Source: Bryopsis sp. KO-2023 (taxonomy: Eukaryota; Chlorophyta; Ulvophyceae; Bryopsidales; Bryopsidaceae). From it: DNA of 64,000 nucleotides. Location: positions 78,729 to 142,728 of the forward strand of contig BSYQ01000018.1 in assembly GCA_030272585.1 (NCBI GenBank), written 5' to 3'. The notes below the pieces were generated by a model. The model ran no database searches. It was not told the DNA's origin and saw only the letters and a program-made list of their open reading frames with translations. Numbering within the stretch: position 1 is the stretch's first letter; each line of letters starts with the position of its first letter. This document shows, piece after piece, positions 12,160 through 64,000 of this stretch. The position numbers and the translations under genes were made by a program.

Positions 12160-14211
12160 ATGGGGAGGGTAGCATCTGTTTCAGGGAAGCAGAACCCGGC
12201 GGGTGGTGTGCCTTGTGAAGCCACACCGAAAGGGAAGGTCGGTCGTTTGGAAAACGTTGAACTGGCGGGTACTCTGTTGGAGGCAGAGTCTCCTGCAAGT
12301 AGGTCAGTGGATGAATTGGCGGGTACTCTGCTGGAGGCAGAGTCTCCTGCAAGTAGGTCAGTGGATGAATTGGCGGGTACTCTGCTGGAGGCAGAGTCTC
12401 CTGCAAGTAGGTCAGTGGATGAATTGGCGGGTACTCTGTTGGAGGCAGAGTCTCCTGCAAGTAGGTCAGTGGATGAATTGGCGGGTACTCTGCTGGGGGC
12501 AGAGTCTCCTGCGAGTAGGTCAGTGGATGAATTAGTGGGTGCTGCTGCAGGGGCAGTAGCATCTGCAGAAATTTTGAAGGAGGTTTCCGGGAATGAGGAG
12601 GCTGGTCGGTCGAGTGGAACCACCACCTCTCAGGTCCCTGAGGCAGGAGGTGCAGGGCCAGGCGGGGCCACACCTGACCTGCATGAGTTTTCTGTGCATG
12701 TGAGTGCTGACAGTGATCTGAGGGCAGACACTGCAGACTCGTTTTCAGTGAGAGAGGAATCTGGGCTGGGCAGACCTAATGAAGTTTGCTTTCAAGGACA
12801 TAGCTTAGATGAACCCCCACTTTTGAAGTTGAGAGGAGTCCATGGGGGGACTCAGGGAATGTTGAAGACCACAGGATTTGTGGCAGGTTGTTTTTCTCGA
12901 ATATTGATAGATAGTGGGGCAACTGACAATTTTGTTTCAAAAGATTGGTTGCTTGAAAATGGCATTCAGACAGAAGCTGCTGAGGTACTGACTGAGGTGC
13001 AGTTAGCAGATGGTAAAACCTCAGAAAAGGTAGAAAAAGAACTGCAGGCCAGTGTCAAAATGGGCAAGTTTGTGTCAGAGGAAAAGATGTATGCCATAAC
13101 ACTAGGGAGGTACGACCTGGTGTTAGGAATGTCTTGGTTAAGCAAACACAACCCTGTCATAGATTGGCAAAAGAAGTTGTTGGTTTTGCAGACACCTCAG
13201 GGAGCAGTCAATCTTAGAATGCAGACTGGTAGAGTAGAAGATTGCAGTACAGCAGAATTGGATCTGATGTCTGCAACAGAGTTCGCACAGGTTGCTCGCA
13301 AGGGCAGACCTATATATTTACTTCATTTGAGAGAAGTGGATGTTGAGCATGCAATAAATGGGTTAGAAAGTACTGAAGCAGTAAAAGGAAGTTTTGCAGA
13401 TACAGTCTCAGAGGAAGAAAGAGAAGCTTTGCAGTTGGAAAAAGAAATCAGAAAAGAGTTTCAGGATTTGTTCAAAGAAGAACTGCCTCAGGAGTTACCT
13501 CCTGACAGAGGTGTTAACCACAAGATAGAACTTGTGGAAGGGGCAGAACCGGTAAAGAAGGGACTTTACAGGGCTAGTTTTGCAGAAAGAGAAGAACTGA
13601 AAAAGCAGTTGGCAGAGTTGCTGAAACAGGGTTTTATCAGACCTAGCAAGTCACCCTGGGGATCACCAGTTTTATTCGTTCCAAAGAAAAATGGGAAGTT
13701 GAGAATGTGTGTCGATTTCAGGGCACTGAATAAACTGACAGTGAAAAACAGGTATCCTATTCCAAGGATTGAGGAGTTGCTAGATCAGATTCAAGGAGCT
13801 CGTTGTTTCAGTAAAATAGATCTCTGCTCAGGTTATCATCAAGTGCGGTTGGACCCTGCAGATTCAGAAAAGACGGCCTTCCGCACTAGATATGGGCTTT
13901 TTGAATATGTGGTTCTTCCTTTTGGGCTGACAAATGCCCCTGCCACCTTTATGAACACCATGAACCATGTTCTTCATGATTTCTTGGATATTTTCTGCAT
14001 AGTTTATCTGGATGACATTTTGGTTTACAGCAGGAATTGGGCTGAACACAAGGTTCACTTGCAGAAAGTACTGCAGAGACTGAGGGAACAGAAACTGTAT
14101 GCTTCAGCTACTAAATGTGACATCTGCAAGATGCAGGTGGAGTTTTTGGGACATGAAGTGAGTGCTGCAGGTATACAGGTGTTGCAGAACAAAGTGCAGG
14201 TCATCAGGGAC
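12160..14211 (+). CDS. pol: Pol of G1, N-terminal part: protease and reverse transcriptase
   Basis: First part of Pol. The ATG at 12160 is in a strong context (accATGG); the frame is open a little upstream. Order: five 18-aa repeats, acidic spacer, aspartic protease (LIDSGATDNFVS, residue ~250), then reverse transcriptase with the SPWGSPVLFV region, YPIPRIEEL, PFGLTNAPATF and active site YLDDILVYS (about 14005). The frame runs uninterrupted into the TSD of the MITE at 14204-14211 and then stops within the MITE. RNase H, integrase and chromodomain continue at 32605. Separate gag and pol frames without overlap imply reinitiation or frameshift, not readthrough. Confidence 0.92.
12259..12528 (+). 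repeat. five 54-bp tandem repeats inside Pol N-terminus
   Basis: Five in-frame copies of a 54-bp unit encoding 18 aa (core ELAGTLLEAESPASRS). Copies differ by a few bases (one GLU to GLY codon change in the last). They lie between the start of Pol and the protease, in a part that varies freely in gypsy elements. Confidence 0.92.
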
Positions 14212-49700: not shown

Positions 49701-50651
49701 TCAGAAAAACGTCTGGGGGAAACCCATCAATTCCTGATGGTTTTCATCGTCTATAAAATGCTGTTGAGCTATTTCTCCCGCACAAAAATTTTCTTTCGGC
49801 GCATTAGATGTTTTCGTCCGGTCTGAGTAGAGTATTAATTTCTTCATCCCTTCTGGAAGCATTGCCCTACCACACAAGCTCCGGGGATTTCTCCCGGCCT
49901 TGGGGAACAGCACGTCAGCTTACCACAGCACTCCCTTGAAGAATTGCACCCCACTCCCTGAAGACGGGAAAAAATCATCAAAATTATATGCATATCCAGA
50001 TATAGAAATCACCACAAGTGTTCAAGAAACAGTGATATCAAGGGGTTTCTCTCACCAGATTGGCGCATGACCCACCTGCAATCAGAAATTACGTCATCAC
50101 CATGTCAGACATCGCAACACAGGCCTCACTGAAGCAACCCTAAAATTGAACAAACTGGGCAGCTATCCACAAACATCAGAAGAAAGAGGGAAAAGGAAAA
50201 GATGGGAGGGGAGTTACACTCACATGCTGCCAAGCACGACGTGAGGGTCTCAAAGTTGTTTTCATTTCCCCCGCACCCTCCATAGTCGAACCTTTCGCAC
50301 TTCCCAGACTGAGAATTAAAAAACCAGTTGGGAATGATGGCATAGCAAGGGCCCGGATCTGCTGGCAGCGTGCAGATATCTGTTCGTACAGACAAGGAAT
50401 TAAAAAATTTAAGTTGGTGAAGCACGTTTCTGTTGCAAAATAGAAACGAAACAAAAAAAAATCCAGAAAAAACTTTAAAAGTGGTCGCGCAAGAGAGACA
50501 ATTTTCAGGGATTCCAGAACAGACAAACGACGCTAGGACAGGGAAAATCAATGTGTGTGGAAGGCAGGTGCCATTGCAACTCACCTTCTTCGCTCTGGGC
50601 CGGCACAACAGCGAACAACAGCACAAAGCAGGCCGCGACTTTGAGAAGCAT
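49701..50651 (-). CDS. secreted Kunitz-domain protease inhibitor, four exons
   Basis: Exons 50585-50651, 50224-50379, 50056-50075 and 49701-49898 give 146 aa; GT-AG introns of 205, 148 and 157 nt, phases 1, 1, 0. Exon 1 is a signal peptide (MLLKVAACFVLLFAVVPAQS). Exon 2 encodes one Kunitz domain with the six-Cys spacing of the family, GPCY at the reactive loop, FFNSQSGKC, YGGCGGNENNF and the final C...C; its last Cys is completed by exon 3. Kunitz domains block serine proteases in a substrate-like way. The P1 residue after the second Cys is Tyr, not Lys/Arg, so chymotrypsin- or elastase-like targets are more likely than trypsin. The C-terminal 70 residues are basic and unrecognised. If the exon 3 donor is not used, the protein stops at 50038 (86 aa). 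Confidence 0.85.
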
Positions 50652-51817
50652 TTTGAACGGTCTTGTGGTAAAAGTCGACGAGATTTTTGGCTCAGTACTC
50701 GCACCACTGAACAATCGCACAAGACCAGCAGAATAATAACACAAACACCGTTCCAATTTTATCCCTTTGTTCACTACCAACTACGTACATTTTCCCAGCG
50801 GAACTCTCGACCATTCTCTGAACTCCCGCCACAGATCACCCGCGATACACGTTCAAGTGCTTTTAGCCATCCGTCCGCGCGCTCGTCGACACACACCCAC
50901 CTCACCCGTGTTTATGTCTTGCATCAATAGTTCCACAACGTGTTCACAGTTGTTCCTTCCCTCTTTTCGCTCCCAAACTCGCGAAATATGAAAACCAAAA
51001 AAGGTGATAGTAAAATTCTTCACAAAACAGCAAGAAGTTCACGCTCTGAAGTGATGAATAGCAGCGGGCGAGGTTGAAGGTAGTGGAATCTAGGTGGGAA
51101 GTTTCAGATGAACGAATGGTCAGGATTGAGCGGCTGGGAATTGGGGGTCGGTTCAGTTGGGTTGGCTTCCACGTATTTCGGCCAAGCTGACGTTGTGCTA
51201 TTCATAATATTTTCAAACCCTTCCACAGGCCACCCTCAGTTTTATTGCTGGAACTTCACTCCTGATGGAGCGGGGAGGAACTTGGCAGATGAGTGAACTT
51301 GGCAAACGAACACCGCGATTTAAATTATGTGTTGGAAAACTGGGAATGGATGGATTCATTGCGAGATGGAACGATGGGTGAAGGGAGAGACGCAACAATT
51401 GAATTGTCGTTCGTTCCAACTCCTGTCGCGAAGCTGCCGCGAAAGGCTGTACAGCACAACCGAATTACTTAAAAACCCCATTGAACAAATGATCTGGTCA
51501 GAGTTATGAGTGCCCAGAACGCTCTTTTTTTTGTTGGGCAAAAGGGAAGGACACCAGAACAAGAGGTGCTTACTGTTACTTTCCTTTAAGCAAGTTGCTG
51601 ATTCGAAGGCATCCTAGGAGGGTCATATCTTTGAGTTGTATGTTGGTGGATTTGGGCCTATTGGCCTCCAGGTTTTTGTTTTTTTTCCCTTCTTCATCAG
51701 TTCCAAACACTGATGCGATGTTCATTGATCAATCGATCACCAATGGAACCCGTCGTCACCCAGATGAAGAATGGAAGGCGCCAGAGGTTTTCTCCACGCC
51801 ACCTACACAAGCCCCTT

Positions 51818-52312: not shown

Positions 52313-52645
52313 TCAGTAATGCAAAACTTGCGGATAGGAATGCACCCTACATTTTGTTTTCGTTTCCGTTGTGTATTTCTTGATACAGCCACATTCAGTA
52401 AAGATTGTGTTGTTCCTTTTCTCTAAAAAAACACTGGTATCCAGAATACTTGTGGTATCCACAACTGCATGCAGTTTTGGATTGTCATTTGTAATATCTA
52501 AGTCTGAAATTAAAATCAAAATTAACGGCACACACACATCAAACGGAAATGCTGCGTTCCTTGCAAGAAACTGTTTTTTCAGAAGTTGTTGTCTGAGTGT
52601 GACATAGAGGTTGTTAGAGCCGAGATAGAAGGGTTGTCGAATCAA
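52313..52645 (-). CDS. probable exon of duplicated gene, copy 1 (exon D)
   Basis: Open frame of 110 codons with protein-like content (QPFYLGSNNLYVTLRQQ, FPFDVCVPLILILIS, NPKLHAVVDTTSILDTSVFL) followed by a Cys-containing end (FTECGCIKK). The start codon in frame is not ATG, so this is an exon or part of one. Possible acceptor TTTTAATTTCAG lies inside it. The first ~80 codons (plus-strand bases from 52407 up) are repeated exactly at 62994-63232; the remaining sequence is unique. Function not recognised. Confidence 0.45.
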   Translation of the reverse strand: MIRQPFYLGSNNLYVTLRQQLLKKQFLARNAAFPFDVCVPLILILISDLDITNDNPKLHAVVDTTSILDTSVFLEKRNNTIFTECGCIKKYTTETKTKCRVHSYPQVLHY

Positions 52646-53383
52646 GGAACGCTTTTCTGAACATTATCTGATTATTACAGGATCTGAAGCTGGCCGGTCC
52701 GAATCATCCAGAATGAGCATGCAAGAATATCAAAAGGACAACAAAGTGAAAAACACTTACTTTCCTTTTTTTTCCAAAATAAATTGAACATCGCATCATG
52801 CATGGTGGGTTGAATGGCTGACTCCTACAAGCCGGGTTTCTGGGGACTCGGCTGTCCAACCAGGTTATGAGACTCCACATACTCACAGAAAACAATTTCA
52901 AACAGCAAAAGTATTACATTTGTCACTGGGGAGCTGCTCAACTAAGACTCCTCCAACAATTTAAGGATGATCCAAACGACAGATCCTCATGGGACAAAAG
53001 ACTTGGCTAAACCCTCCGTTTCAAATTTATTTTTGATCATCACAGGTTCAACTCAAAATCCAGGAACCAGGCAACTTACCCTGGAGCAATATATACACGC
53101 AACAATGGAAAACTTCCACACAAATCTGAAAATATATAGCCTGATGCCTGGTCAAACGAATAGTCTTCTCTCTCAGATTAACCCACTTTCTTTGTACTCA
53201 ATAATAGTCCACACGATCCTGTTGAGCCACACCACCACCAGCAACCGTCGCCTCCTCCTCCGCAATCAAGTACTGCAGAACAGTCAACTTCATTCAGAAT
53301 CTCCCAGTAATCACAGGCCCATCTAATCCAATTCATACCAAATCACCAAAGCCTACAAACCAAGCTTATCAAGTACATACACT

Positions 53384-53458
53384 TTATAACCCATATCCAC
53401 CCCCCCATGCCGCCGCCACCACCGCCGCCAACCACTCAGCTCCTGAAGTCCCTTCCTC
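53384..53458 (-). CDS. terminal exon next to the array
   Basis: 75 nt from an acceptor (TGTGTTTCAG) to a TAA stop at 53384-53386; the frame is EEGTSGAEWLAAVVAAAWGG and a short end. It starts in phase 0 and matches the phase-0 end of the exon at 62000-62197, so direct splicing across the whole array gives an open frame. Its first ~24 nt align with the core of the array unit, but lack the GTTC that follows the acceptor in the units. It ends in a GGC-rich tract. Confidence 0.5.
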   Translation of the reverse strand, partial: EEGTSGAEWLAAVVAAAWGGGYGL

Positions 53459-56400
53459 CTGAAACACAACACACAAAAACAAGTCAACAAACAACAGCCC
53501 ACCCAACCCCACTTACTTGTTCTCCTTCCTTCAGAGCTCCAGGGGTCCCTTCCTCGAACCTGAAAAACAGCACACAAAAACAAGTCAACAAACAACAGCC
53601 CACCCAACCCCACTTACTTGTTTTTCTTCCTTCAGAGCTCCAGGGGTCCCTTCCTCGAACCTGAAAAACAGCACACAAAAACAAGTCACCAAACAACAGC
53701 CCACCCAACCCCACTTACTTGTTTTTCTTCCTTCAGAGCTCCAGGGGTCCCTTCCTCGAACCTGAAAAACAGCACACAAAAACAAGTCAACAAACAACAG
53801 CCCACCCAACCCCACTTACTTGTTTTCCTTCCTTCAGAGCTCCAGGGGTCCCTTCCTCGAACCTGAAAAACAGCACACAAAAACAAGTCACCAAACAACA
53901 GCCCACCCAACCCCACTTACTTGTTTTTCTTCCTTCAGAGCTCCAGGGGTCCCTTCCTCGAACCTGAAAAACAGCACACAAAAACAAGTCAACAAACAAC
54001 AGCCCACCCAACCCCACTTACTTGTTTTTCTTCCTTCAGAGCTCCAGGGGTCCCTTCCTCGAACCTGAAACACAACACACAAAAACAAGTCAACAAACAA
54101 CAGCCCACCCAACCCCACTTACTTGTTTTCCTTCCTTCAGAGCTCCAGGGGTCCCTTCCTCGAACCTGAAAAACAGCACACAAAAACAAGTCACCAAACA
54201 ACAGCCCACCCAACCCCACTTACTTGTTTTTCTTCCTTCAGAGCTCCAGGGGTCCCTTCCTCGAACCTGAAAAACAGCACACAAAAACAAGTCAACAAAC
54301 AACAGCTCACCCAACCCCACTTACTTGTTCTCCTTCCTTCAGAGCTCCAGGGGTCCCTTCCTCGAACCTGAAACACAACACACAAAAACAAGTCAACAAA
54401 CAACAGCCCACCCAACCCCACTTACTTGTTTTCCTTCCTTCAGAGCTCCAGGGGTCCCTTCCTCGAACCTGAAAAACAGCACACAAAAACAAGTCACCAA
54501 ACAACAGCCCACCCAACCCCACTTACTTGTTTTTCTTCCTTCAGAGCTCCAGGGGTCCCTTCCTCGAACCTGAAAAACAGCACACAAAAACAAGTCAACA
54601 AACAACAGCCCACCCAACCCCACTTACTTGTTTTTCTTCCTTCAGAGCTCCAGGGGTCCCTTCCTCGAACCTGAAACACAACACACAAAAACAAGTCAAC
54701 AAACAACAGCCCACCCAACCCCACTTACTTGTTTTTCTTCCTTCAGAGCTCCAGGGGTCCCTTCCTCGAACCTGAAAAACAGCACACAAAAACAAGTCAA
54801 CAAACAACAGCTCACCCAACCCCACTTACTTGTTCTCCTTCCTTCAGAGCTCCAGGGGTCCCTTCCTCGAACCTGAAACACAACACACAAAAACAAGTCA
54901 ACAAACAACAGCCCACCCAACCCCACTTACTTGTTTTCCTTCCTTCAGAGCTCCAGGGGTCCCTTCCTCGAACCTGAAAAACAGCACACAAAAACAAGTC
55001 ACCAAACAACAGCCCACCCAACCCCACTTACTTGTTTTTCTTCCTTCAGAGCTCCAGGGGTCCCTTCCTCGAACCTGAAAAACAGCACACAAAAACAAGT
55101 CAACAAACAACAGCCCACCCAACCCCACTTACTTGTTTTTCTTCCTTCAGAGCTCCAGGGGTCCCTTCCTCGAACCTGAAACACAACACACAAAAACAAG
55201 TCAACAAACAACAGCCCACCCAACCCCACTTACTTGTTTTTCTTCCTTCAGAGCTCCAGGGGTCCCTTCCTCGAACCTGAAACACAACACACAAAAACAA
55301 GTCAACAAACAACAGCCCACCCAACCCCACTTACTTGTTTTTCTTCCTTCAGAGCTCCAGGGGTCCCTTCCTCGAACCTGAAAAACAGCACACAAAAACA
55401 AGTCAACAAACAACAGCCCACCCAACCCCACTTACTTGTTTTTCTTCCTTCAGAGCTCCAGGGGTCCCTTCCTCGAACCTGAAAAACAGCACACAAAAAC
55501 AAGTCACCAAACAACAGCCCACCCAACCCCACTTACTTGTTTTTCTTCCTTCAGAGCTCCAGGGGTCCCTTCCTCGAACCTGAAAAACAGCACACAAAAA
55601 CAAGTCAACAAACAACAGCCCACCCAACCCCACTTACTTGTTTTTCTTCCTTCAGAGCTCCAGGGGTCCCTTCCTCGAACCTGAAACACAACACACAAAA
55701 ACAAGTCAACAAACAACAGCCCACCCAACCCCACTTACTTGTTTTTCTTCCTTCAGAGCTCCAGGGGTCCCTTCCTCGAACCTGAAACACAACACACAAA
55801 AACAAGTCAACAAACAACAGCCCACCCAACCCCACTTACTTGTTTTTCTTCCTTCAGAGCTCCAGGGGTCCCTTCCTCGAACCTGAAACACAACACACAA
55901 AAACAAGTCAACAAACAACAGCCCACCCAACCCCACTTACTTGTTCTCCTTCCTTCAGAGCTCCAGGGGTCCCTTCCTCGAACCTGAAAAACAGCACACA
56001 AAAACAAGTCAACAAACAACAGCCCACCCAACCCCACTTACTTGTTTTTCTTCCTTCAGAGCTCCAGGGGTCCCTTCCTCGAACCTGAAAAACAGCACAC
56101 AAAAACAAGTCAACAAACAACAGCCCACCCAACCCCACTTACTTGTTCTCCTTCCTTCAGAGCTCCAGGGGTCCCTTCCTCGAACCTGAAAAACAGCACA
56201 CAAAAACAAGTCAACAAACAACAGCCCACCCAACCCCACTTACTTGTTCTCCTTCCTTCAGAGCTCCAGGGGTCCCTTCCTCGAACCTGAAAAACAGCAC
56301 ACAAAAACAAGTCAACAAACAACAGCCCACCCAACCCCACTTACTTGTTTTTCTTCCTTCAGAGCTCCAGGGGTCCCTTCCTCGAACCTGAAACACAACA

Positions 56401-59400
56401 CACAAAAACAAGTCAACAAACAACAGCCCACCCAACCCCACTTACTTGTTTTCCTTCCTTCAGAGCTCCAGGGGTCCCTTCCTCGAACCTGAAACACAAC
56501 ACACAAAAACAAGTCAACAAACAACAGCCCACCCAACCCCACTTACTTGTTCTCCTTCCTTCAGAGCTCCAGGGGTCCCTTCCTCGAACCTGAAAAACAG
56601 CACACAAAAACAAGTCAACAAACAACAGCCCACCCAACCCCACTTACTTGTTTTTCTTCCTTCAGAGCTCCAGGGGTCCCTTCCTCGAACCTGAAAAACA
56701 GCACACAAAAACAAGTCAACAAACAACAGCCCACCCAACCCCACTTACTTGTTTTTCTTCCTTCAGAGCTCCAGGGGTCCCTTCCTCGAACCTGGAACAC
56801 AACACAAAAAAACAAGTCAACAAACAACAGCCCACCCAACCCCACTTACTTGTTTTTCTTCCTTCAGAGCTCCAGGGGTCCCTTCCTCGAACCTGAAACA
56901 CAACACAAAAAAACAAGTCAACAAACAACAGCCCACCCAACCCCACTTACTTGTTTTTCTTCCTTCAGAGCTCCAGGGGTCCCTTCCTCGAACCTGAAAC
57001 ACAAAAACACAAAAACAAGTCAACAAACAACAGCCCACCCAACCCCACTTACTTGTTTTTCTTCCTTCAGAGCTCCAGGGGTCCCTTCCTCGAACCTGAA
57101 ACACAAAAACACAAAAACAAGTCAACAAACAACAGCCCACCCAACCCCACTTACTTGTTTTCCTTCCTTCAGAGCTCCAGGGGTCCCTTCCTCGAACCTG
57201 AAAAACAGCACACAAAAACAAGTCAACAAACAACAGCCCACCCAACCCCACTTACTTGTTCTCCTTCCTTCAGAGCTCCAGGGGTCCCTTCCTCGAACCT
57301 GAAAAACAGCACACAAAAACAAGTCAACAAACAACAGCCCACCCAACCCCACTTACTTGTTTTTCTTCCTTCAGAGCTCCAGGGGTCCCTTCCTCGAACC
57401 TGAAACACAACACAAAAAAACAAGTCAACAAACAACAGCCCACCCAACCCCACTTACTTGTTTTCCTTCCTTCAGAGCTCCAGGGGTCCCTTCCTCGAAC
57501 CTGAAAAACAGCACACAAAAACAAGTCAACAAACAACAGCCCACCCAACCCCACTTACTTGTTTTTCTTCCTTCAGAGCTCCAGGGGTCCCTTCCTCGAA
57601 CCTGAAAAACAGCACACAAAAACAAGTCAACAAACAACAGCCCACCCAACCCCACTTACTTGTTCTCCTTCCTTCAGAGCTCCAGGGGTCCCTTCCTCGA
57701 ACCTGAAAAACAGCACACAAAAACAAGTCAACAAACAACAGCCCACCCAACCCCACTTACTTGTTTTTCTTCCTTCAGAGCTCCAGGGGTCCCTTCCTCG
57801 AACCTGAAACACAACACAAAAAAACAAGTCAACAAACAACAGCCCACCCAACCCCACTTACTTGTTTTCCTTCCTTCAGAGCTCCAGGGGTCCCTTCCTC
57901 GAACCTGAAAAACAGCACACAAAAACAAGTCAACAAACAACAGCCCACCCAACCCCACTTACTTGTTTTTCTTCCTTCAGAGCTCCAGGGGTCCCTTCCT
58001 CGAACCTGAAAAACAGCACACAAAAACAAGTCAACAAACAACAGCCCACCCAACCCCACTTACTTGTTTTTCTTCCTTCAGAGCTCCAGGGGTCCCTTCC
58101 TCGAACCTGAAAAACAGCACACAAAAACAAGTCAACAAACAACAGCCCACCCAACCCCACTTACTTGTTTTTCTTCCTTCAGAGCTCCAGGGGTCCCTTC
58201 CTCGAACCTGAAAAACAGCACACAAAAACAATTCAACAAACAACAGCCCACCCAACCCCACTTACTTGTTTTTCTTCCTTCAGAGCTCCAGGGGTCCCTT
58301 CCTCGAACCTGAAACACAAAAACACAAAAACAAGTCAACAAACAACAGCCCACCCAACCCCACTTACTTGTTTTTCTTCCTTCAGAGCTCCAGGGGTCCC
58401 TTCCTCGAACCTGAAAAACAGCACACAAAAACAAGTCAACAAACAACAGCCCACCCAACCCCACTTACTTGTTTTTCTTCCTTCAGAGCTCCAGGGGTCC
58501 CTTCCTCGAACCCGAAAAACAGCACTTAAAAACAATTCAACAAACAACAGCCCACCCAACCCCACTTACTTGTTTTTCTTCCTTCAGAGCTCCAGGGGTC
58601 CCTTCCTCGAACCCGAAAAACAGCACACAAAAACAAGTCAACAAACAACAGCCCACCCAACCCCACTTACTTGTTTTTCTTCCTTCAGAGCTCCAGGGGT
58701 CCCTTCCTCGAACCTGAAACACAACACAAAAAAACAAGTCAACAAACAACAGCCCACCCAACCCCACTTACTTGTTTTCCTTCCTTCAGAGCTCCAGGGG
58801 TCCCTTCCTCGAACCTGAAAAACAGCACACAAAAACAAGTCAACAAACAACAGCCCACCCAACCCCACTTACTTGTTCTCCTTCCTTCAGAGCTCCAGGG
58901 GTCCCTTCCTCGAACCTGAAACACAACACACAAAAACAAGTCAACAAACAACAGCCCACCCAACCCCACTTACTTGTTCTCCTTCCTTCAGAGCTCCAGG
59001 GGTCCCTTCCTCGAACCTGAAACACAACACACAAAAACAAGTCAACAAACAACAGCCCACCCAACCCCACTTACTTGTTCTCCTTCCTTCAGAGCTCCAG
59101 GGGTCCCTTCCTCGAACCTGAAACACAACACACAAAAACAAGTCAACAAACAACAGCCCACCCAACCCCACTTACTTGTTCTCCTTCCTTCAGAGCTCCA
59201 GGGGTCCCTTCCTCGAACCTGAAACACAACACACAAAAACAAGTCAACAAACAACAGCCCACCCAACCCCACTTACTTGTTCTCCTTCCTTCAGAGCTCC
59301 AGGGGTCCCTTCCTCGAACCTGAAACACAACACACAAAAACAAGTCAACAAACAACAGCCCACCCAACCCCACTTACTTGTTTTCCTTCCTTCAGAGCTC

Positions 59401-61999
59401 CAGGGGTCCCTTCCTCGAACCTGAAACACAAAAACACAAAAACAAGTCAACAAACAACAGCCCACCCAACCCCACTTACTTGTTTTCCTTCCTTCAGAGC
59501 TCCAGGGGTCCCTTCCTCGAACCTGAAACACAACACACAAAAACAAGTCAACAAACAACAGCCCACCCAACCCCACTTACTTGTTCTCCTTCCTTCAGAG
59601 CTCCAGGGGTCCCTTTCTCGAACCTGAAACACAACACACAAAAACAAGTCAACAAACAACAGCCCACCCAACCCCACTTACTTGTTCTCCTTCTTTCAGA
59701 GCTCCAGGGGTCCCTTCCTCGAACCTGAAACACAACACACAAAAACAAGTCAACAAACAACAGCCCACCCAACCCCACTTACTTGTTTTCCTCCCTTCAG
59801 AGCTCCAGGGGTCCCTTCCTCGAACCTGAAACACAACACACAAAAACAAGTCAACAAACAACAGCCCACCCAACCCCACTTACTTGTTCTCCTTCCTTCA
59901 GAGCTCCAGGGGTCCCTTCCTCGAACCTGAAAAACAGCACACAAAAACAAGTCAACAAACAACAGCCCACCCAACCCCACTTACTTGTTTTTCTTCCTTC
60001 AGAGCTCCAGGGGTCCCTTCCTCGAACCTGAAACACAACACAAAAAAACAAGTCAACAAACAACAGCCCACCCAACCCCACTTACTTGTTTTTCTTCCTT
60101 CAGAGCTCCAGGGGTCCCTTCCTCGAACCTGAAACACAAAAACACAAAAACAAGTCAACAAACAACAGCCCACCCAACCCCACTTACTTGTTTTTCTTCC
60201 TTCAGAGCTCCAGGGGTCCCTTCCTCGAACCTGAAACACAACACACAAAAACAAGTCAACAAACAACAGCCCACCCAACCCCACTTACTTGTTCTCCTTC
60301 CTTCAGAGCTCCAGGGGTCCCTTCCTCGAACCTGAAACACAACACACAAAAACAAGTCAACAAACAACAGCCCACCCAACCCCACTTACTTGTTTTTCTT
60401 CCTTCAGAGCTCCAGGGGTCCCTTCCTCGAACCTGAAACACAAAAACACAAAAACAAGTCAACAAACAACAGCCCACCCAACCCCACTTACTTGTTTTTC
60501 TTCCTTCAGAGCTCCAGGGGTCCCTTCCTCGAACCTGAAACACAACACACAAAAACAAGTCAACAAACAACAGCCCACCCAACCCCACTTACTTGTTTTT
60601 CTTCCTTCAGAGCTCCAGGGGTCCCTTCCTCGAACCTGAAACACAACACACAAAAACAAGTCAACAAACAACAGCCCACCCAACCCCACTTACTTGTTCT
60701 CCTTCCTTCAGAGCTCCAGGGGTCCCTTCCTCGAACCTGAAACACAACACACAAAAACAAGTCAACAAACAACAGCCCACCCAACCCCACTTACTTGTTT
60801 TTCTTCCTTCAGAGCTCCAGGGGTCCCTTCCTCGAACCTGAAACACAACACACAAAAACAAGTCAACAAACAACAGCCCACCCAACCCCACTTACTTGTT
60901 CTCCTTCTTTCAGAGCTCCAGGGGTCCCTTCCTCGAACCTGAAACACAAAAACACAAAAACAAGTCAACAAACAACAGCCCACCCAACCCCACTTACTTG
61001 TTTTCCTTCTTTCAGAGCTCCAGGGGTCCCTTCCTCGAACCTGAAACACAACACACAAAAACAAGTCAACAAACAACAGCCCACCCAACCCCACTTACTT
61101 GTTCTCCTTCCTTCAGAGCTCCAGGGGTCCCTTCCTCGAACCTGAAACACAACACACAAAAACAAGTCAACAAACAACAGCCCACCCAACCCCACTTACT
61201 TGTTCTCCTTCCTTCAGAGCTCCAGGGGTCCCTTCCTCGAACCTGAAACACAACACACAAAAACAAGTCAACAAACAACAGCCCACCCAACCCCACTTAC
61301 TTGTTCTCCTTCCTTCAGAGCTCCAGGGGTCCCTTCCTCGAACCTGAAACACAACACACAAAAACAATTCAACAAACAACAGCCCACCCAACCCCACTTA
61401 CTTGTTCTCCTTCTTTCAGAGCTCCAGGGGTCCCTTCCTCGAACCTGAAACACAACACACAAAAACAAGTCAACAAACAACAGCCCACCCAACCCCACTT
61501 ACTTGTTCTCCTTCTTTCAGAGCTCCAGGGGTCCCTTCCTCGAACCTGAAACACAAAAACACAAAAACAAGTCAACAAACAACAGCCCACCCAACCCCAC
61601 TTACTTGTTTTCCTTCCTTCAGAGCTCCAGGGGTCCCTTCCTCGAACCTGAAACACAACACACAAAAACAAGTCAACAAACAACAGCCCACCCAACCCCA
61701 CTTACTTGTTCTCCTTCTTTCAGAGCTCCAGGGGTCCCTTCCTCGAACCTGAAACACAACACACAAAAACAAGTCAACAAACAACAGCCCACCCAACCCC
61801 ACTTACTTGTTTTTCTTCCTTCAGAGCTCCAGGGGTCCCTTCCTCGAACCTGAAACACAAAAACACAAAAACAAGTCAACAAACAACAGCCCACCCAACC
61901 CCACTTACTTGTTTTTCTTCCTTCAGAGCTCCAGGGGTCCCTTCCTCGAACCTGAAACACAACACACAAAAACAAGTCAACAAACAACAGCCCACCCAC
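53459..61999 (-). repeat. array of 84 exon-intron units of 101/102 bp
   Basis: 84 copies of a 101-bp unit (nine spacings are 102 bp). Read on the minus strand each unit has a pyrimidine-rich tract and acceptor (CTGTTTTTCAG or a TGTTTCAG variant), a 43-nt exon-like core (starting GTTCGAGGAAGGG, containing GACCCCTGGAGCTC), a donor CAA|GTAAGT, G-runs (GGGGTTGGGTGGG) and TTGAC as a possible branch site. The implied intron is 58-59 nt. Core frame: FEEGTPGALKEEKQ with variants EGEQ, EGKQ. Since 43 is not a multiple of three, chained units reach a TGA in the second copy. The plus strand has a good acceptor but no good donor. Exon B and the terminal exon flank the array. Confidence 0.9.
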
Positions 62000-62197
62000 T
62001 TGTTTTCTTTCCTCCAGAGGTCCATCCTTCGTACATGCAGAAACGAAATGCGGAGCGACGATCGGAGTTTTCACGAGGACCTTTCTTTTTGTGTGCTCCT
62101 CAAACTCGAGCCTTGTGGTAACCGGTCGACGGCTGACGCGGTCGTTGACGTAAACGAATTCCCTTGCCGTGAAACGGTGGGACAGACGGTTGTGTTT
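62000..62197 (-). CDS. exon B, just upstream of the array
   Basis: 198 nt, 66 codons, phase 0 at both ends: acceptor TGACTCATCCAG, donor CAA|GTGGGT. The product is charged and strand-rich (REFVYVNDRVSRRPVTTRLE, KVLVKTPIVAPHF). Its last 12 codons (TKDGPLEERKQ) align with the end of the array unit (GTPGALKEEKQ), and the following intron start GTGGGTGGGCTG matches the unit's intron. The stop upstream of the acceptor shows that the frame must come from splicing. No family recognised. Confidence 0.55.
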
Positions 62198-62611
62198 CTG
62201 GATGAGTCAGTGCCAGAAAAGGGATGACGGAAAAAAGAGTGACCATGTGGGATGTGGCAGCAAGATACCAGCGTGAATTTTAAACGGAGGCGGAAAGATT
62301 AACGGTGCTAAAAAGTCGGGGACAAGGTTATTAGTCGAAACCCCCCTTTCCCCAAATTTTCTCGGAAATCAGAGAGTCAGACAGAGAGGAACAAAAGAGT
62401 GTGAGAAAGAGTGAGATTACTGTTTCAGTCGTTGTGATGTGTCAGACAAAGTTACTGTAAACAGCCTTTCTTTTTCTTCTTTTTGATCCAGAATTGACCC
62501 AAACAAAACAACAGGATCGAAATAATAATAAATCTTTACAATTACATGAAAATATTATTGCGAAGATTAGGGAGAAAAAAAACACCTTCCATTTTTTTTC
62601 TTTGCAGAAAC

Positions 62612-62993: not shown

Positions 62994-63232
62994 GTGTTGT
63001 TCCTTTTCTCTAAAAAAACACTGGTATCCAGAATACTTGTGGTATCCACAACTGCATGCAGTTTTGGATTGTCATTTGTAATATCTAAGTCTGAAATTAA
63101 AATCAAAATTAACGGCACACACACATCAAACGGAAATGCTGCGTTCCTTGCAAGAAACTGTTTTTTCAGAAGTTGTTGTCTGAGTGTGACATAGAGGTTG
63201 TTAGAGCCGAGATAGAAGGGTTGTCGAATCAA
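62994..63232 (-). CDS. probable exon D, copy 2, truncated at the duplication joint
   Basis: Same coding sequence as 52407-52645 up to the duplication breakpoint at 62994, after which the frame runs into unrelated sequence and the Cys-containing end of copy 1 is lost. Splicing at an internal donor (CACAA|GTATTC) would rescue a frame into exon C. Confidence 0.4.
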
Positions 63233-64000
63233 GGAACGCTTTTCTGAACATTATCTGATTATTACAGGATCTGAAGCTGGCCGGTCCGAATCATCCAGAA
63301 TGAGCATGCAAGAATATCAAAAGGACAACAAAGTGAAAAACACTTACTTTCCTTTTTTTTCCAAAATAAATTGAACATCGCATCATGCATGGTGGGTTGA
63401 ATGGCTGACTCCTACAAGCCGGGTTTCTGGGGACTCGGCTGTCCAACCAGGTTATGAGACTCCACATACTCACAGAAAACAATTTCAAACAGCAAAAGTA
63501 TTACATTTGTCACTGGGGAGCTGCTCAACTAAGACTCCTCCAACAATTTAAGGATGATCCAAACGACAGATCCTCATGGGACAAAAGACTTGGCTAAACC
63601 CTCCGTTTCAAATTTATTTTTGATCATCACAGGTTCAACTCAAAATCCAGGAACCAGGCAACTTACCCTGGAGCAATATATACACGCAACAATGGAAAAC
63701 TTCCACACAAATCTGAAAATATATAGCCTGATGCCTGGTCAAACGAATAGTCTTCTCTCTCAGATTAACCCACTTTCTTTGTACTCAATAATAGTCCACA
63801 CGATCCTGTTGAGCCACACCACCACCAGCAACCGTCGCCTCCTCCTCCGCAATCAAGTACTGCAGAACAGTCAACTTCATTCAGAATCTCCCAGTAATCA
63901 CAGGCCCATCTAATCCAATTCATACCAAATCACCAAAGCCTACAAACCAAGCTTATCAAGTACATACACTTTATAACCCATATCCACCCCCCCATGCCGC
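62994..64000. repeat. second copy of the tandem duplication, partial
   Basis: Exact-looking copy of 52407-53413. It ends at the window edge within the copy of the terminal exon (63971 onwards), so a second array may start just outside the window. Confidence 0.9.

Follow-up and report, generated by a model that had tools for sequence, protein, structure and literature searches.

An array of small exon-like modules was analyzed in a 64,000-nt stretch of the genome of the giant unicellular green alga Bryopsis sp. KO-2023 (assembly GCA_030272585.1, as given for this strain in PMC12509668; contig BSYQ01000018.1, here C18, positions 78729-142728). This whole stretch is called the window, and its position 64000 is the end of C18. 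The array contains, on the minus strand, 84 copies of a unit of 101/102 nt, and each unit includes a complete exon-like core with a donor and, in all but two units, an acceptor. With a probability of roughly 0.6, we consider the array to be a young, expanding exon-intron duplication, which is splice-competent by sequence and non-coding in the window.

Anatomy of the array and its flanks

Tandem Repeats Finder (TRF) reported the array at 53458-61998 with a period of 101, 84.5 copies, 97% matches, and a score of 15776. All 84 minus-strand units have the donor CAA|GTAAGT, and the spacing between donors is 101 nt (74 times) or 102 nt (9 times). The 84 cores, between 53517 and 61951, are all 43 nt long and begin with GTT, and the introns between them are 58 or 59 nt. 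The acceptor hexamer is TTTCAG in 81 units, TTCCAG in one, and TTTCGG in two; thus, the AG is intact in 82 of the 84 units. The two cores preceded by CGG instead of CAG (58570-58612 and 58469-58511, minus strand) lie together in the stretch 58469-58612. The first intron (61952-61999, minus strand; 48 nt from the coordinates) is homologous to the unit intron with a deletion near the donor, and the last intron of the array (53459-53516, minus strand) is 58 nt long and ends with TTTCAG. An earlier note, made from the letters of the window, had described a 43-nt core, the same donor, and a spacing of 58-59 nt, with an acceptor in all but two of 84 units. This description is exact.

The units are not all identical, and 22 types were distinguished among 83 window units. 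Units of the same type recur above the shuffle level at lags of 1, 3, and 5 (z 2.7-3.2), a pattern expected from local duplication. As to higher-order repeats, only this weak short-lag similarity was seen in the window array. The plus strand of the unit has no comparable arrangement of donor, acceptor, and intron. When the 101-nt unit was shuffled with its dinucleotides preserved, such an arrangement (donor of at least 8/9, acceptor, and an intron of 45-80 nt) appeared by chance on the minus strand in 110 of 20,000 shuffles and on the other strand in 41 of 20,000, under settings chosen after the unit had been seen.

All 84 cores carry TGA within CTCTGA, so spliced cores give no long open reading frame (ORF). 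When 80 of 83 window cores were joined in order, three being skipped by the parser, no frame exceeded 42 codons. The product of the window array, if spliced, would be a non-coding RNA.

Upstream of the array on the minus strand is a putative 5' exon of 214 nt (62000-62213), whose 5' end was placed where the similarity between copies rises. It ends with CAA|GTGGGT, a weaker donor than that of the array, and homology to the array core is found in its last ~35 nt. Downstream of the array, the next exon (53381-53458, minus strand; 78 nt, with inferred limits) has a core-like start, GAGGAAGGGAC; the sequence that follows is similar to exon 3 of a family of glycine-rich genes on contig C13, and the donor has decayed to GTATGT. 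Position 53272 on the same strand is the inferred first base of a glycine-rich segment similar to exon 4 of that family, with the acceptor CTGCAG, and AATAAA at 53026-53031 (minus strand) is a possible poly(A) signal by sequence. The window-type downstream exons share short blocks of ~69-95% identity with exons 3 and 4 of the C13 family, and the glycine-rich reading is broken in the window. The 3' part of this gene-like unit, 1007 nt at 52407-53413 (minus strand), recurs without any difference at 62994-64000 (minus strand), where it is ended by the contig end and marks the next unit. This recurrence indicates that the set of 5' exon, array, and 3' exons is itself tandemly repeated in the window.

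Two glycine-rich genes resembling those for secreted proteins were observed on the minus strand of C13, L049 (C13:1232501-1238500) and L051 (C13:2672501-2677500). By eye, and with inferred exon limits, both begin with what resembles a signal peptide (MAKI..ALFAML); exon 2 has 21 nt, the next two exons are glycine-rich, and the tail reads CWWC(R/G)K. Further pieces related to them are present on C13.

Related arrays and the origin of the module

The search of the genome (91 Mb in 28 contigs) revealed a family of related arrays. The unit gave 444 matches and two diverged units gave 221; in each search, the 150 listed matches were all on C12, C17, or C18. Fifteen arrays were read on these three contigs. 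They contain from 1 to at least 97 modules, and some are 10-14% diverged. Besides the 84 modules of the window, numbers of 73, 50, 44, 41, 26, 23, 22, 15, 10, 9, 8, 5, and 1 were counted, several of them being lower bounds at the edge of a stretch or at a contig start. Modules were counted by their donors; in five arrays the donor of the 5' exon also fits the pattern, and it was subtracted there. The first 10 kb of C18 contain at least 97 modules, and the array there may reach about 190, judging from the spacing between the 10 kb read and the 3' flank first met at C18:19512. The first bases of C12, C17, and C18 fall inside arrays.

The upstream side was read for 14 of the 15 arrays, and in each of them the array is preceded by the same 5' exon. 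The 5' part has 23 matches in the genome (16 on C12, two each on C18, C6, and C5, and one on C17) and the 3' part has 36; more distant matches of the 5' or 3' part are on C5, C6, C13, and other contigs. The matches of the 5' part were considered with regard to a mobile element containing a minisatellite, for which scattered copies sharing their ends would be expected. The downstream side of the window type follows the arrays at C12:3k, C12:10k, and C12:145k. A second type is found after L014 and one of the L036 arrays and, as a more distant version, after L038; the other L036 array is followed by unrelated sequence. A macro-repeat on C12 has flank copies 7,157 nt apart.

The 499 full units of the 15 arrays follow one another without interruption, and no spacing is skipped. 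Units were found by a donor-like pattern allowing limited change; a lost donor would appear as a double spacing, and none was seen among these 499. Of 481 units, 471 were parsed for core length, which is 42 nt in 15, 43 nt in 396, and 44 nt in 60. Diverged arrays include the donor variants GTGAGT and GCGAGT (four units, C12:800k) and the acceptor TAG (four units, C12:1668k). GC donors number four in total, and one of them is the donor of the C12:800k 5' exon. The typical unit differs between arrays, indicating that several of them expanded separately.

The origin of the module, a point new to this analysis, is indicated by homology with the neighboring exon. The 5' exon tail, GTACGAAGGATGGACCTCTGGAGGAAAGAAAACAA, and its intron can be aligned with the module across the donor and as far as the CAG. 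Judged by this alignment, the unit arose by tandem duplication of the upstream exon tail together with its intron. The exon after the array also starts core-like, with GTTC still present in C12:145k, and in L014, L036, and L038 the last exon continues from a core with a degenerate donor. The smallest form is at C12:1747k, which has a single internal module. The statement in the earlier note that the unit is an exon-intron module and not a plain satellite is supported by its homology to the upstream exon tail and intron, by the two ends of the window array, which grade into exon, and by related arrays that retain splice signals up to ~14% divergence.

The following course of events would account for these arrays. 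The starting gene-like unit would have had a 5' exon, one short intron, and a 3' exon. Tandem duplication from inside the 5' exon tail to the intron end would have produced an additional internal exon already equipped with both splice sites, and this step could be repeated. Unequal exchange and gene conversion would then have generated arrays of very different lengths in the tandem and dispersed copies on C12, C17, and C18. A minus-strand transcript would probably be spliced, with variable inclusion of modules, into non-coding RNA, and the module number is most likely not under selection.

Splice signals, coding capacity, and alternative explanations

By sequence, the modules are splice-competent. 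The donor matches the general consensus at 8/9 positions, and it is accompanied by a short G-rich stretch, a U-rich tract, and CAG|G. TTGAC, located ~26 nt before the AG, is a possible branch site. In a set of 498 units taken from 14 arrays, 494 donors begin with GT and four with GC, and the acceptor AG is lost in three units.

This integrity is not accompanied by a detectable signature of selection. Two fixed differences between arrays fall in the 15 donor and acceptor columns, versus 20 in the 86 other columns. A McDonald-Kreitman (MK)-type test on the 14 arrays, which included two more diverged ones, allowed looser gaps, and left out the single-module array C12:1747k, showed no significant lack of fixed changes at splice columns (p 0.72; 0.59 with the tract; 0.13 with the branch region). 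A column-based test of fixed changes on the 498 units gave p 0.73, 0.60, and 0.21 for the same three sets. An initial appearance of splice-site selection (MK-type p down to 0.001; columns 7e-5) was due to misalignment of C12:1747k. A run without that array and with fewer arrays (MK-type p 0.037-0.44; columns 0.047-0.46) was superseded by the larger set. The earlier note had cautioned that the youth of the units limits the argument from conservation, and it was right to do so.

A junction between two spliced cores would read ...AACAA/GTTCGAGG.... One form of the core-core junction has no copy in the genome within three mismatches; hence, there is no sign of a spliced RNA having been recently retrocopied. 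As to the suggestion that the array could work as microexons making many transcript lengths, the indirect signs are either against it or neutral.

Two observations weigh against the reading as a young duplication whose module number is not selected. Four introns confirmed in a single host gene have lengths of 145-550 nt, and an intron of 58 nt may thus be short for the Bryopsis spliceosome. Compared with five diverged relatives (L014, L036, L037, L038, and L059), the 5' exon shows 94-98% identity, and the next 100 nt upstream only 58-88%; this step could reflect selection on the exon and hence a working RNA. The exon is also 95-96% identical to L012 and L013a, and the next 100 nt range from 58 to 90% across all seven relatives. 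In L012 and L013a, the region 100-200 nt upstream is 98-99% identical, above their exon identity. In L034 the step is reversed (exon 87%, upstream 91%), and it is hardly visible in L060 (89% versus 86%, with the exon end set too far). The pattern in L012, L013a, and L034 fits patchy gene conversion. The identities as a whole are compatible both with selection on the exon and with conversion in patches.

As an alternative, the locus could be a functional non-coding gene with many small exons, of which differing numbers are joined by splicing, the repeated exon being the functional part, as in Firre. Donors and nearly all acceptors are kept in 15 arrays with mostly splice-compatible changes, the typical unit differs by array as a result of several separate expansions, and most copies of the 5' exon show good conservation. 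The indels between these copies are mostly 1, 2, and 4 nt, thus mostly not in steps of three, which is not coding-like. However, fixed differences are not significantly rarer at splice columns, the junction search found no copy, and no Rfam family reached the gathering score in the window. The region 62000-62205 does not fold better than shuffles (z 0.52), and a structured RNA in the 5' exon was rejected on this ground. A BRCT-like reading of the 5' exon peptide was likewise dropped, as nothing exceeded the Pfam cut-off. We regard such a working non-coding gene as unlikely. A related version, in which a non-coding gene family of Bryopsis carries an elastic array of 1 to perhaps far more than 100 near-identical and variably spliced 43-nt exons, with splice-site integrity rather than exon sequence being kept and with the exon number changed by unequal exchange, seems doubtful.

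At the other extreme, the array could be a satellite with fossil splice sites, in a region that is silent or where the array is never spliced. It has the head-to-tail, homogenised structure with local duplication of a plain satellite, its units are young, and splice-site conservation is not above background. The donor of the downstream exon has decayed and the glycine-rich frame is broken, the downstream side is less constant, with at least two types and the unrelated sequence after one L036 array, and three contigs start in arrays. Against this, the gene-like flank is found at 14 of 14 arrays read on that side, and arrays as much as ~10-14% diverged still retain their orientation and splice signals. 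Such a fossil satellite is improbable to us.

That the spliced cores encode a long charged and disordered protein is very improbable. It is suggested by the C12:800k array (L036 and L059, C12:795.5-803.0 kb), which has 73 diverged modules, mixed 42-, 43-, and 44-nt cores, and the four GC donors. Its spliced reading is open up to 1044 codons and nearly stop-free in three frames. The long reading is because 67 of 73 cores are stop-free in every frame; the core variant CTCAGAAGG is free of stops in all frames. With only six of the 73 cores containing a stop, one open frame has about one chance in four by our estimate, which is not above chance. A 137-amino-acid spliced reading of this array matched no protein at E 0.01 among 2820 candidates, which covered only lengths of ~75-240 amino acids. 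The frame is not kept across the repeated exons, given cores of 42, 43, and 44 nt in the family and CTCTGA in all window cores. An assembly artefact inflating the copy number is also hardly credible. Tandem repeats are hard to assemble, contigs start in arrays, and the true copy number may differ, but the window array has sequence of another kind at either end and includes the 22 unit types, and the separate loci differ in length and variants.

Two further candidates were rejected. An array of spliced-leader RNA genes should have donors without acceptors, while 82 of 84 units have an acceptor and the window has no Rfam match at the gathering score. Searches with SL1 found nothing, which has little bearing on an alga since SL1 is a nematode sequence and controls were also silent in one search. 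A host gene array for small nucleolar RNAs is not supported, as the introns are 58 nt and no Rfam match at the gathering score was found in the window or at four further loci.

If a young exon-intron duplication of this kind is transcribed, one genome offers a natural titration series of 1, 5, 8, 23, 50, 73, and 84 or more near-identical small exons. It would test the number of successive 43-nt exons and 58-nt introns that a spliceosome is able to process, and whether modules are included at random. Should the arrays be silent, they still show how tandem duplication can make a splice-competent satellite out of an exon tail and its intron, and how arrays of this kind spread among gene copies.

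Other features and comparison with known systems

Nested retroelements occupy window positions 5734-37670, with reverse transcriptase-like ORFs between repeats; element types were judged by eye. Four pairs of direct repeats are nested one inside another: 5734-5891/37513-37670 (100%), 9334-9683/36639-36988 (100%, with GAATT flanks on both sides), 14419-15001/31729-32311 (100%), and 15003-15607/23160-23765 (99.8%). At 12258-12556, a 54-bp repeat of 5.5 copies is in frame within a retroelement ORF (ELAGTLLEAESPASRSVD). A Kunitz/BPTI domain (Pfam PF00014, E 1.4e-20) is encoded at 50126-50758 on the minus strand of this green alga genome; it has seven database matches, including one from a snake and one from a Myxococcales metagenome-assembled genome. 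Elsewhere in the genome, COX1 is split over 12.6 kb (C27:134464-147043), with ORFs between that look like homing endonucleases and maturases by eye, and it is an intron-rich mitochondrial gene. Many HSP70 copies and fragments, some with stops, are located at C2:5.6-8.6 Mb. One HSP70 of the genome is 100% identical, over 98% of the query, to BSKO_02152 of Bryopsis sp. KO-2023, pointing to this or a near-identical strain; a nematode origin, which the Kunitz ORF and TTTTCAG acceptors had suggested, was rejected.

No comparable array was found among the papers listed on repeated and micro-exons, repeat arrays, Firre, intron gain, and the Bryopsis genome, which is no proof that none is published. 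Schistosome micro-exon genes have short exons of 3-81 bp (PMC10526429). They encode secreted proteins and have long introns and no single repeated module, unlike the Bryopsis array.

The multicopy DAZ genes are coding. On the primate Y chromosome, they have tandemly duplicated exons whose number varies between individuals, and 2-4 copies were found in the macaques assayed (PMC4772468). They resemble the Bryopsis array in tandem exon duplication within multicopy units, with few copies in DAZ. In the potato RNA-dependent RNA polymerase gene, a tandem duplication across an intron-exon boundary supplies splice signals (PMC4974935). It is one event, whereas in Bryopsis an existing intron is multiplied many times, a class that the same report separates from intron creation.

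In chicken BG1, the cytoplasmic tail is encoded by 13 to 21 very short tandem exons, with examples of 21 or 24 nt; the exon number of BG genes has probably changed through unequal crossing-over of a four-exon repeat (PMC5043582). The two systems have in common that very short exons follow each other in tandem. The exons of BG are translated and have codon-multiple sizes, whereas the Bryopsis cores are 42-44 nt with stops and several-fold more numerous. In Firre/FIRRE, a long non-coding RNA, a local repeat overlaps seven of the 13 exons in human and 11 of the 23 in mouse (PMC4820808). A local repeat overlapping putative exons in a non-coding context is shared with Bryopsis, in the window array only and by sequence, C12:800k being largely open. 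Transcription and a nuclear-retention role are shown for Firre. The putative exons of Bryopsis lie in near-identical units placed head to tail every 101 nt, with 84 copies here and at least 97 elsewhere.

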